From Chitinophagaceae bacterium IBVUCB1 (GTDB lineage Bacteria > Bacteroidota > Bacteroidia > Chitinophagales > Chitinophagaceae), in contig NFUW01000001.1 in the NCBI GenBank assembly GCA_002127285.1, positions 1,252,057 to 1,316,056 of the forward strand: a stretch of DNA of 64,000 bases, read 5' to 3'. This document shows, one piece after another, positions 57,900-59,963 of this stretch. The stretch's first letter is position 1. Every line of letters begins with the position of its first letter. Made by a program: the position numbers and the translations under genes. Under the pieces are notes generated by a model. That model searched no databases, was not told the DNA's origin, and saw only the letters and a list, made by a program, of their open reading frames with translations.

Positions 57900-58310
57900 T
57901 TAATTGTCATTTTCAATCCGCCAAGTAAATGGTTGAGTATAACGTACTTTGACTGGCTTATCATTCATTCGACCAGGCTTCCATTTTGGCATACCTTTAA
58001 TAAGTCGTATAGCCTCACGTTCTAACGAGGCTCCGTATTTTATTCGATCGCCAACAATCATAATACTATCTAACGAACCATCTGTATTTACTATAAACCC
58101 AACATTTACTCTTCCTTGAATTCCTTTATCTCTAGCATCAGGTGGGTATCTCAAATTTTCAATAAAATATTGATTGACATTAAAAGGAGGTTCAGGCATC
58201 ACTTCTGCATACCTATATATAGTATCGGTTATTGGCATTTCTTCGTCTATCTCTTGTGCAAACAAATTAATGTTTGTAAAAAGCATTGCCAGAAACAAAA
58301 TGTATTTCAT
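57900..58310 (-). CDS. Secreted TonB C-terminal-domain protein, 136 aa
   Basis: A signal peptide (MKYILFLAMLFTNINLFAQ) is followed by about 30 residues and then a TonB C-terminal domain (YPPDARDKGIQGRVNVGFIV, REAIRLIKGMPKWKPGRMND). The N-terminal anchor and the proline-rich linker of a true TonB are missing, so it is periplasmic and cannot energise receptors as a standard TonB. The start at 58310 is preferred to one 9 codons upstream, which would fall inside paaC. It lies 20 nt after the paaC stop. Confidence 0.85.
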   Translation of the reverse strand: MKYILFLAMLFTNINLFAQEIDEEMPITDTIYRYAEVMPEPPFNVNQYFIENLRYPPDARDKGIQGRVNVGFIVNTDGSLDSIMIVGDRIKYGASLEREAIRLIKGMPKWKPGRMNDKPVKVRYTQPFTWRIENDN

Positions 58311-58330
58311 AACATAAGTTTTATTGATGA

Positions 58331-59173
58331 TTACCACTCCATGTCAGGATATGCGCGTTGCATAAATTGCATTTCTGCCAGTATGTAGCCGAGGTGTTCG
58401 CTATGGCGGCATTCTTTGCCACCGCTATGCATCCATGTGTTGGTTGGTAGTGTTAGCGTGGCTTCTTCTAAAACTGTATTCACTCGTTGCTGCCACTGTG
58501 TTTTGATGGCAGCAATATCTACACCTATACCATCTGCAAGGGCTGTTTTGTCTACAACAGTTGTTTCAAACAATTCACCTGTATAAGCCCAATAGCTATC
58601 AAGTGCTTCCTGCACACGCGCTTTGCTTTCATCTGTACCATCGCCAAGGCGTATCATCCACTCGCTGCTCCAGCGCAGGTGGTAGGTTACTTCTTTCAAC
58701 GATTTTTCGGCAACGGCTGCTAATACAACGTCTTTACTGTTTTGCAGTGCAGCATAAAAATAGAAATTGAATGTATCGTACAGAAAAGAACGCACTACGG
58801 TGTATGCCCAGTCTTTATTAGGCTGTTCTGCCAGTAGTGCATTGCGAAAGTCCCAGCCATCGCGCAGATAGGCAAGGTCGTCTTCGTCTATGTTCTCGCC
58901 TTTAGTTATTTTGTTTTGGAGTGCGGTAGAAGAAAACAATGTTTTCTGTTCGTCAGCAGGTAGTGCATTAAACATATCTGCTGCGTGCTGATATAGTGAG
59001 CGAGCCTGCCCCAGGTGGTCGAGCGCGGTATTGGTAAGTGCAATATCCTGCTCCAGTATTGGCCCATGCCCGCACCACTCGCTGATGCGGTGGCCAAGTA
59101 TCAGTGCATTGTCTGCAATCTGTAATGTGTAAAGTAGCCGATTAGTTGACTGGTTGACTGGTTGATTTGTCAT
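58331..59173 (-). CDS. paaC: 1,2-phenylacetyl-CoA epoxidase subunit PaaC
   Basis: PaaC is the structural subunit of the diiron epoxidase that converts phenylacetyl-CoA to its 1,2-epoxide. The 280 residues contain GHRISEWCGHGPILEQDIAL, LDHLGQARSLYQHAADMF and a C-terminal GGKECRHSEHLGYILAEMQF. The first nine residues (MTNQPVNQSTN) are encoded by a repeat-like sequence shared with the flank of the upstream inserted gene. The ATG overlaps the stop of the four-helix-bundle gene (ATGA). Confidence 0.95.
   Translation of the reverse strand: MTNQPVNQSTNRLLYTLQIADNALILGHRISEWCGHGPILEQDIALTNTALDHLGQARSLYQHAADMFNALPADEQKTLFSSTALQNKITKGENIDEDDLAYLRDGWDFRNALLAEQPNKDWAYTVVRSFLYDTFNFYFYAALQNSKDVVLAAVAEKSLKEVTYHLRWSSEWMIRLGDGTDESKARVQEALDSYWAYTGELFETTVVDKTALADGIGVDIAAIKTQWQQRVNTVLEEATLTLPTNTWMHSGGKECRHSEHLGYILAEMQFMQRAYPDMEW
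59141..59170. repeat. Flanking inverted repeat, left arm
   Basis: On the + strand this reads ATTAGTTGACTGGTTGA and continues with a second GTTGACTGG unit. It matches, in inverse orientation and imperfectly, the sequence at 59561-59585, on the other side of the four-helix-bundle gene. It also encodes the PaaC N-terminus. Confidence 0.65.
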
Positions 59174-59559
59174 TCCTTGTTATTTATATTATTGCGTAAG
59201 AAAGTGATGTATCCGTTCAGCAATTTACCTGTATCATCAACTTTACTTTCTATGCTGCTTATTTCTTCCTTTGATAAATATTTGCAATCCATTACATCTA
59301 TCAGATGATTTTGGACTTCACTCAATGAACCTCTTGCCTGTATGCAAAAATGTGATTGCTCTTTGTAGGTATATCTGCCATGCCCTTCTGCAATATTTGC
59401 ACATATAGACCTTGATGCTCTTATTAGTTGGTCTGCTAACCTAAATCTTTCATCTGCAGGCAAGCGCTTCGCTAATTCATACACTTCATTTTTCAATGCT
59501 CGTGCTACTTGCCATACAGTCAATTCAGTAAAACTTTGGTATGGTTTATTATCGTTCAA
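59170..59559 (-). CDS. Four-helix-bundle protein (23S rRNA intervening-sequence type)
   Basis: The 129-residue protein belongs to the family found in 23S rRNA intervening sequences: SFTELTVWQVARALKNEVYE, ADQLIRASRSICANIAEGHG, EQSHFCIQARGSLSEVQNHL. The fold is known but the function is not. It lies inside the paa operon between paaB and paaC, overlaps the paaC start by 4 nt, and begins with TTG. Imperfect inverted repeats flank it, so it looks like an insertion cassette. Confidence 0.88.
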   Translation of the reverse strand: MNDNKPYQSFTELTVWQVARALKNEVYELAKRLPADERFRLADQLIRASRSICANIAEGHGRYTYKEQSHFCIQARGSLSEVQNHLIDVMDCKYLSKEEISSIESKVDDTGKLLNGYITFLRNNINNKE

Positions 59560-59560
59560 A

Positions 59561-59585
59561 TTAACTAATCAACAAGTCAACAAAT
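59561..59585. repeat. Flanking inverted repeat, right arm
   Basis: On the minus strand this reads ATTTGTTGACTTGTTGA and continues TTAGTTAA. It resembles the left arm at 59141-59170 (ATTAGTTGACTGGTTGA). Confidence 0.65.
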
Positions 59586-59597
59586 AAACAAGCATGA

Positions 59598-59963
59598 CTA
59601 CATATGCTTCAACTCGTCCGGCAAATCGTAGAACGTTGGGTGGCGATATACTTTATCGTTTGCCGGTTCGTACATAGATGCCGCTTCAAAAGGGTCTGAT
59701 GCATGTATGTATTTGCTCTCTACCACCCATATGCTTATACCTTCCATGCGGCGGGTATATACATCGCGTGCGTTTTCTATTGCCATCTGTGCATCTGCAG
59801 CATGCAGGCTGCCCGCATGTTTGTGGTCGAGTCCTGCTTTGCTGCGTATAAACACTTCCCACAAAGGCCATTCGCCTGCTGTGTTGTGTGTGCCGCTGCT
59901 GCCTGCTGCCTGTTCTTTATCGCCGTAGTCGCCGTAGAGGTTTTTATTTATAAACTGGTTCAT
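59598..59963 (-). CDS. paaB: 1,2-phenylacetyl-CoA epoxidase subunit PaaB
   Basis: The 121-residue small subunit of the epoxidase complex shows GEWPLWEVFIRSKAGLDHKH, ADAQMAIENARDVYTRR and ISIWVVESKYIHAS. A 35-residue N-terminal lead (KNLYGDYGDKEQAAGSSG) is longer than in some homologues. It is 23 nt behind paaA. The inserted four-helix-bundle gene begins 38 nt after its stop. Confidence 0.95.
   Translation of the reverse strand: MNQFINKNLYGDYGDKEQAAGSSGTHNTAGEWPLWEVFIRSKAGLDHKHAGSLHAADAQMAIENARDVYTRRMEGISIWVVESKYIHASDPFEAASMYEPANDKVYRHPTFYDLPDELKHM

Follow-up and report, generated by a model that had tools for sequence, protein, structure and literature searches.

The window analysed here is a stretch of 64,000 nucleotides from Chitinophagaceae bacterium IBVUCB1 (GenBank assembly GCA_002127285.1, contig NFUW01000001.1, positions 1,252,057 to 1,316,056 of the forward strand). 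Within it, the genes paaB and paaC of the paa operon are separated by a small gene for a four-helix-bundle (4HB) protein that is enclosed by two arrays of short tandem repeats (Table 1). The encoded protein scores above the curated cut-offs of the profiles PF05635 (23S_rRNA_IVP; 118.7 bits, cut-off 33.8) and TIGR02436 (105.9 bits, cut-off 24), so that an earlier interpretation of the letters alone (the sequence-only reading), which had recognised a gene of the 23S rRNA intervening sequence (IVS) type at this place, was correct in this regard. It is the only open reading frame (ORF) of at least 60 amino acids between the arms and the only 4HB gene of the genome (G000 in the following, where G denotes genomes, C contigs and L loci). 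No transposase gene lies between the ends of the cassette, which is therefore not an autonomous insertion sequence. With its S23p-family ORF enclosed by inverted repeats it resembles an IVS; however, it is inserted between paaB and paaC and not in a 23S rRNA gene.

The arms (59141-59169 and 59557-59585) are inverted, 29 nt long and 83% complementary. They had been described as imperfect inverted repeats, which holds for their orientation, but they are in fact tandem octamers of the form GTTGANNN, and the upstream array reaches 59591. The sequence GTTGACTGGTTGACTGGTTGA occurs once in the window at up to three mismatches and in none of 100 shuffles. Both arms are part of the coding sequences next to them: the TTG start of the 4HB gene consists of the terminal bases of its own upstream arm, and the N-terminus of PaaC reads MTNQPVNQSTN-RLLYTLQ. 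An arm-encoded PaaC N-terminus had been proposed before, although as the first nine residues (QPVNQSTN), whereas the arm accounts for residues 2-11; the proposed ATGA overlap of the 4HB stop and the PaaC start was recovered exactly. The 4HB protein matches the structure 2gsc (3.9e-11), and the related structures 2gsc and 2rld contain five chains each. The arms pair in both predicted RNA structures of the whole element. A simple stem for RNase III is nevertheless improbable, since the total fold energy lies inside the range of the shuffles and the spacers between the repeat cores match only weakly within hairpins.

Table 1. Features of the 4HB cassette and its host genes (positions in the window)
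Feature	Position	Strand	Remarks
4HB gene (PF05635/TIGR02436)	59170..59559	-	129 aa, TTG start, profile matches
5' arm, upstream of the 4HB gene on the coding strand	59557..59591	-	octamers TTGTTTAT-TTGTTGAC-TTGTTGAT-TAGTTAAT-TTG
3' arm, complementary octamer array	59141..59170	-	translated as PaaC residues 2-11 (TNQPVNQSTN)
ATGA overlap of 4HB stop TGA (59172-59170) and PaaC ATG (59173-59171)	59170..59173	-	
paaC, downstream host gene	58331..59173	-	PF05138, TIGR02158
paaB, upstream host gene	59598..59963	-	PF06243, TIGR02157

The enclosure of 4HB genes by arms of 7- or 8-nt repeats is a general rule across phyla, with a unit that differs by type; arms beside other family members, as expected from the sequence-only reading, are present at most loci looked at. 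Two of our samples, one of 93 4HB loci from the own genome and its relatives (the order sample, taken mostly from the head of a score-ranked list over 99 genomes) and one of the best 80 of 589 confirmed loci (the genome_contigs sample), are biased to strong family members, since they were drawn from top-scoring matches. After removal of two loci with short flanks (L010, L019), the best repeat period, taken over both flanks from lags of 4-13, was 7 in 63 and 8 in 13 of 91 order loci. An array of period 7 or 8 was found on at least one side in 71 of these 91 (on both sides in 29), compared to 5 of the 177 windows used as controls at a distance of 600-760 bp; L030 and L130, among the 91, contain runs of N that raise their score. 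The complementarity of left and right arms exceeded the 95th percentile of mismatched-locus pairs in 73/91 and the 99th in 53/91. The units vary by locus (GGATGTT, AGCTTTG, AAGTATT, GTCCATG, GTTGATTA and others) and are generally identical in both arms of one order locus, with a median of 4.4-4.6 units per arm at period 7. Where both sides carry arrays (34/89 order and 33/80 genome_contigs loci), left arms have more G than C (30/34 and 28/33) and right arms more C than G (28/34 and 28/33).

The same anatomy was found further afield. In the genome_contigs sample, with one locus dropped for a short flank, the best period was 7 or 8 in 74/79; 59 loci had arms beyond the 95th percentile and 33 beyond the 99th. 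The examples come from Ignavibacteriae, Clostridia, Planctomycetota, Acidobacteria, Omnitrophica, Akkermansia and Betaproteobacteria. Among 28 of 39 loci from viral contigs (11 near-duplicates or partial matches were left out by eye), the period was 7 or 8 in 27; 26 had arms that exceeded the 95th percentile and 8 the 99th. Cyanobacterial plasmids, of which 10 loci were read out of 26 records matched, showed period 7 in nine cases and 8 in one, the arms exceeding the 99th percentile in six.

The repeat unit is associated with the type of 4HB protein. This was analysed for 89 order loci (without L010, L019 and the paa orthologues of L001, L127 and L129), 57 of which qualified. All five qualifying loci of the protein cluster of IBVUCB1 have period 8, compared to 4/52 in other clusters (Fisher 3e-5). 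Between genomes, unit similarity follows protein identity (Mantel r 0.16, P 0.005, 1557 pairs), with a mean of 0.46 above 60% identity (33 pairs from different genomes), 0.23 at 50-60% and 0.12-0.19 below 50%; within genomes, r was 0.28 (P 0.047, 39 pairs). At least, this association reflects a co-inheritance of arms and gene.

The arrays also occur without the gene. In G000, with its single 4HB gene, further armed copies of the gene are ruled out, but the octamer arrays themselves recur: strict GTTGANNN triplets were counted 26 times (overlaps and the arms of the cassette included) and the reversed control pattern not once, and gene-less arrays outnumber the 4HB gene. Among 86 matches at up to three mismatches, there were six convergent pairs within 500 bp, one being the paa cassette, and no divergent pair; in G018, the close opposite-strand pairs among the 67 matches listed were 13 convergent and 0 divergent. 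The 21 gene-less hairpins, which were read in G018, G021 and G000, carry 3-6 units in each arm around loops of 10-73 nt; this reading looked for convergent order only, and the 15 paired regions, out of 20 that were fetched, had been chosen since the pattern listing showed pairs. Within hairpins, the spacers match barely above chance (in the outer register 0.51 compared to 0.43 after shuffling, P 2e-4; 0.66 compared to 0.62 in the best register, P 0.047), indicating that the cores are conserved as motifs more than for the pairing of the stem. At G000:C2:1419768-1419820 (L036), a lone GTTGANNN array, seen in its complementary form, ends a few bases ahead of the ATG of a Terminase_3 gene (phage terminase large subunit), and AACTG-type heptamers adjoin it.

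Arrays and proteins of the same type occur together. Among 59 genomes, GTTGANNN arrays (at least three matches, above the control) are present in 15, a 4HB protein of the own type (E up to 1e-23) in 10 and both in 9 (Fisher P 3.6e-6), where G063, with 10 matches for the pattern and 10 for the control, was scored as array-less, as was any genome with 1-2 matches. Outside the own genus (44 genomes), all four array genomes carry the own-type protein (P 3.7e-5). Within the genus, arrays and protein are both absent from G001, G003, G005 and G013. A second unit, TAAGTNN, reaches at least seven matches in six genomes, the arms of 4HB genes being counted (G017 705, G024 10, G004, G010 and G011 8 each, G077 7); its core lies in 4HB arms in five of them and in G077 in the right flank only. 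The 705 TAAGTNNTAAGTNNTAAGT matches (overlaps counted) in the 4.7-Mb genome of G017, a member of the same family, compare to 244 of the reversed pattern and appear to represent a burst of heptamer arrays. The reversed control pattern is itself abundant elsewhere (G035 207, G030 88; also G033 and G074), pointing to another heptamer array family.

Orientation relative to the neighbours was judged in the two samples and the viral contigs by an ORF heuristic that cannot be relied on in GC-rich contigs, whose two strands are both open. In the order sample without L127 and L129 (91 loci, 82 with both neighbours), the 4HB gene lies in sense between co-directional neighbours in 72 of 76 cases, and among the best 80 of 589 genome_contigs loci in 60 of 61. 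Seven of the ten plasmid loci are likewise in sense between co-directional neighbours; of the other three, two are antisense and one lies between genes on opposite strands. Three armed 4HB genes on cyanobacterial plasmids (L389, L390, L394) lie inside cas6-cas4 (twice) and cas10-cmr3. In the accessible part of a survey of CRISPR-Cas-associated functions, 18 genes of the 23S-IVP type are listed in cas loci (PMC3936711); the arms of the three genes read here suggest that these are insertions. The two viral loci read with identified neighbours have an antisense 4HB gene between portal and prohead protease genes (L208) and between capsid E and head decoration (decoration D) genes (L200; all by Pfam), positioned like morons. 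With Xcc0516 of Xanthomonas campestris as the sole query tried, no match was found among 50,697 records of phages; the viral-contig copies may therefore lie in prophages or in mislabelled contigs.

The comparison of paaB-paaC junctions in relatives, the check that the sequence-only reading had called for, did yield sites without the cassette. The search for PaaC in 59 genomes including the own returned 30 loci, 29 of them with a paaB-paaC junction, and a 4HB gene is present at five: G000, G002 and G008 of the own genus and G021 and G024 of other genera, the match in G024 being in two pieces. In a tree of PaaA, PaaB and PaaC, the occupied G002 stands beside the empty G006 (99% support) and the occupied G000 with the empty G004 (unrooted split 100). 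The junction measures 454 bp in G002 and 44 bp in its sister G006. PaaC starts with MTNQ(P/Q)VNQST(N/S) in the three genus members with the cassette and with MNQL(L/T)YTLQ in three genus relatives without it; in G002 and G008, the 4HB stop is a TAG two bases ahead of the PaaC ATG. G011 has a 4HB gene near paa as well (C150:8744), where the contig of its sister G010 stops before that point. Junctions without a 4HB gene (L068-L070, L072, L084, L086, L091) often hold other inverted short repeats, by eye of the GGAATT-, TTTTGACT-, GTGAAAAG- and CTCACG-type, and paaB-paaC is a possible hot spot. A small gene for a protein with a TonB_C domain lies 3' of paaC in the window (57900-58337, minus strand), and a similar one 3' of paaC in G009 (L098 8854-9270).

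A second site is found in G011, where a 416-bp 4HB cassette with octamer arms of the TTTGACAA type lies between the genes for the flavoprotein and the iron-sulfur subunit of succinate dehydrogenase/fumarate reductase (by Pfam). The sister G010 has 78 unrelated bases at this junction, with flanks 96-97% identical to those of G011, and the junction measures 27-31 bp in G014, G009, G007 and G006, 37 bp in G004 and, by coordinates, 31 bp in G002. Ahead of the iron-sulfur subunit gene, G014, G009, G007, G006, G004 and G000 retain a motif A(A/G)ATATTCC that is missing in G011 and G010. The corresponding junction in G000 (G000:C2:764045-764768) holds an unrelated insertion with an ORF, with 722 bp between the matches. 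At a third site, a 4HB gene lies within 569 bp in G009 compared to 131 bp in the sister G014. Presence and absence at one site between close relatives, as expected of a mobile element in the broad sense, is thus observed (G002/G006, G011/G010). The claim that the cassette provides the start codon of the downstream gene applies to paaC, where start and N-terminus derive from the cassette in the three occupied genus members, but not to the succinate dehydrogenase site, where the native ATG of the downstream gene is retained.

Taken together, we consider it about an even bet (a probability of roughly 0.5) that the cassette is a selfish element of the intervening-sequence type whose pentameric protein recognises its own repeat, and which rides in operons and spreads repeat hairpins. 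It would be a minimal relative of the 23S IVS living in protein-coding operons and consisting of one 4HB gene and two inverted arrays of 7- or 8-nt repeats. The 4HB protein may form a pentameric ring that binds the tandem repeat, probably as a single strand or hairpin and with each subunit taking up one unit. The protein subtype would set core and period of the repeat, which is here GTTGA plus three free bases. The hairpin, with or without the gene, could be copied in trans into intergenic junctions by machinery of the host, by a route that might run through DNA or through RNA. If the hairpin is indeed the copied unit, this would be the reason why a genome with one 4HB gene also holds many gene-less hairpins. 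On chromosomes, the gene would be expressed from the host operon, with the arms contributing the start codon of the 4HB gene itself and, in some cases, that of its downstream neighbour.

Several observations weigh against this interpretation. No movement of the cassette has been observed, and mobility is read from presence and absence. The copy at paa is old: at third positions it has diverged (0.37-0.44) at least as far as PaaC (0.26-0.41), and among G000, G002 and G008 dS is saturated, which rules out a recent gain. With a dN/dS of 0.02-0.04 among these three genomes, it is also under purifying selection, so that the mobile cassette of the sequence-only reading stands as a cassette with empty sites in close relatives, but one that is old and constrained at this locus. 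Since G004 shares its empty-type junction with G012 and G006 is sister to the occupied G002, one has to assume that cassettes were lost or exchanged for empty alleles. The clean insertion that had been proposed did not hold up. No target-site duplication was seen at paaB-paaC (G000/G004, G002/G006) or at the succinate dehydrogenase junction (G011 compared to G010 and others), and the old junction sequence is gone at the sites compared (44 against 454 bp in G006/G002; the 27-37 bp A(A/G)ATATTCC junction lost in G011), so that insertion appears to be accompanied by replacement of the junction, and a clean insertion with target duplication finds no support at these sites. G010 and its sister G011 have most of the compared arrays in common, so that transposition of hairpins is slow or has stopped.

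The statistical evidence has weak points as well. The overall Mantel correlation of r 0.16 is low and could be produced by arms that merely travel with the gene. The limit for own-type proteins and the array cut-offs of three and seven matches were all set after the lists had been viewed. G075, which lies outside the own genus, has an own-type protein without GTTGANNN arrays, and six array genomes, all of the own genus, lack the protein, for which loss must be assumed; in the PaaABC tree, these six group with carriers, with weak support. The TAAGTNN counts are inflated by the 4HB arms, their reversed control is not neutral, as it matches other heptamer arrays (G035, G030, G033), and G021, which has a TAAGTNN-armed 4HB gene, gave four matches as did the control. 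No clear arms were seen at L248 (Alphaproteobacteria), L312 (Acidobacteria) and L301 (Methanophagales), among others. In viral contigs, many of them GC-rich, the 4HB gene is in sense in only 1/18 cases, and expression from a host operon is therefore not universal. Finally, the 4HB protein of IBVUCB1 is not basic (pI 6.8), and the fold of the whole element RNA is not unusually stable (z -1.36, with 10 of 100 shuffles equally good).

A different explanation would be a stable regulatory module, in which the 4HB ring binds the arms in the mRNA and controls the translation of its own and the next gene, the gene-less arrays being the targets of a regulon. A model for such a module is TRAP, which binds tandem trinucleotides. 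The position of the arms at start codons (the TTG of the 4HB gene and the ATG of paaC), the sense orientation in operons, the purifying selection on the paa copy and the conservation of cores next to variable spacers, as in protein binding sites, would all fit, as would the TAACTGA repeats situated just ahead of start codons in Beggiatoaceae, according to the accessible text of PMC4679880. We still regard this as unlikely, since the cassettes interrupt quite unrelated gene pairs (paa, succinate dehydrogenase, cas6-cas4, cas10-cmr3, ribonucleotide reductase, phage head), the insertion sites differ between sisters, whereas a regulon would keep its targets, and antisense copies exist in viral contigs and at 2/10 plasmid loci.

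Still less probable is that the repeats move through another enzyme, for instance a Y1/HUH transposase, and that the 4HB gene is a passenger or regulator. In REP-RAYT pairs, repeats are tied to a transposase of this kind, and REP/RAYT systems and MITEs in general combine one coding copy with many dispersed palindromic copies. The present element shares this organisation, with gene-less arrays outnumbering the 4HB gene, and G000 has one strong match to a Y1 transposase. In contrast to those systems, however, it comes without a transposase and with tandem 7- or 8-mers whose unit changes between protein types. No Y1 match was found in the cassette-bearing G002 or G011, and both unit similarity and the presence of arrays follow the 4HB protein.

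Retro-mobility with the help of a reverse transcriptase would be conceivable by analogy to the Avd protein of diversity-generating retroelements, which resembles PF05635 in sequence and structure (4DWL, 2GSC), as stated in the accessible portion of PMC10053308, but we hold it to be very improbable. The sense bias and the hairpin arms would suit an RNA intermediate, and the 4HB protein does score against Avd models, although below their cut-offs (bAvd 20.3 bits, cut-off 40; DivGenRetAVD 28.1 bits, cut-off 80), so that it does not count as an Avd. The whole genome G000 has no RVT_1 match, nor has G002, unlike what is expected for a diversity-generating retroelement, although transfer could predate a loss. 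Neither a reverse transcriptase nor a Y1 transposase is present in all seven genomes searched, and both are thereby rejected as a required partner. The least probable explanation of all is that the 4HB gene is just an ordinary accessory member of the paa operon, its arms having been produced by slippage of a native CAACTA sequence: the copy is old, a 4HB gene occurs at 5/29 paaB-paaC junctions, two of them in other genera, and the native PaaC start already reads AATCAACTA, but the same family occurs with other units in unrelated operons across phyla, nothing was seen that links it to phenylacetate, and the succinate dehydrogenase copy speaks against it.

Some pieces of the selfish-element interpretation are already known. 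The 23S IVS of Coxiella is described in PMC4990558, in the part accessible to us, as a selfish element of 428 nt that is excised by RNase III and consists of an S23p ORF within a stem of inverted repeats, with tandem GACAGAT heptamers directly ahead of the S23p start whose number varies by strain. The same part of this source cites a homopentamer, mentions IVS in the 23S rRNA of Leptospira and others and calls the function of PF05635 unknown. As far as this description goes, the Coxiella IVS and the paa cassette share an S23p-family ORF, inverted arms and tandem short repeats by the start; the former lies in rRNA, however, and its heptamers were reported as strain variation and not as a rule. 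The cassettes described here differ from it by their location in protein-coding operons, by the dispersed gene-less hairpins and by a unit that tends to follow protein similarity.

Heptamer repeat arrays have been referred to as a little-studied feature of bacterial genomes (PMC4692102, accessible part). For Xanthomonas campestris, the same part reports 186 GGGAATC arrays, the majority with four units, including 70 convergent pairs; they were studied as G-quadruplexes, and no role in gene regulation was identified. These convergent pairs, as far as described there, have the same anatomy as our gene-less hairpins, and X. campestris also encodes a 4HB protein, Xcc0516 (2gsc); the terms 'xcc05' and 'four-helix' do not occur in the main text of that paper. 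Similarly, TAACTGA heptamers were described in Beggiatoaceae, Cyanobacteria and Bacteroidetes with a patchy distribution and no evident transfer mechanism; in Beggiatoaceae, they mostly adjoin start codons, and S1, Csp or Csr were proposed as binders (PMC4679880, accessible part). On the basis of that part, they resemble the arrays presented here in being patchily distributed heptamer arrays next to start codons, but are direct repeats, unlike the inverted arms; 'four helix' and 'intervening' do not occur in the main text. We found no publication that joins short repeat arrays to the 4HB family as a rule, which is weak evidence, since preprints and most subscription papers lay outside our search.

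A wider generalisation, to which we give somewhat less than even chances, would be a phylum-crossing class of mobile elements made of a non-catalytic ring protein and a cognate hairpin of 7- or 8-nt repeats. Each subtype would read its own repeat with one unit per subunit and spread gene-less hairpins, by hundreds in some genomes. Such a class might be the source of the heptamer arrays in cyanobacteria, Xanthomonas, Beggiatoa and Bacteroidota as well as of the 23S-IVP hitchhikers in cas loci.

The results presented here tie the widespread PF05635 family to the little-studied heptamer repeat arrays, and 4HB genes with their own 7- or 8-nt arms may explain many of the scattered short repeats in bacterial genomes. 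The finding would also account for the appearance of '23S rRNA intervening sequence proteins' in CRISPR, succinate dehydrogenase, paa, phage-head and ribonucleotide reductase clusters of which they are not members, and it cautions against inferring the function of 4HB proteins from such gene neighbourhoods. It predicts that each 4HB protein binds the unit of its own arms, and the natural pairs of protein and repeat could become a readable recognition code.

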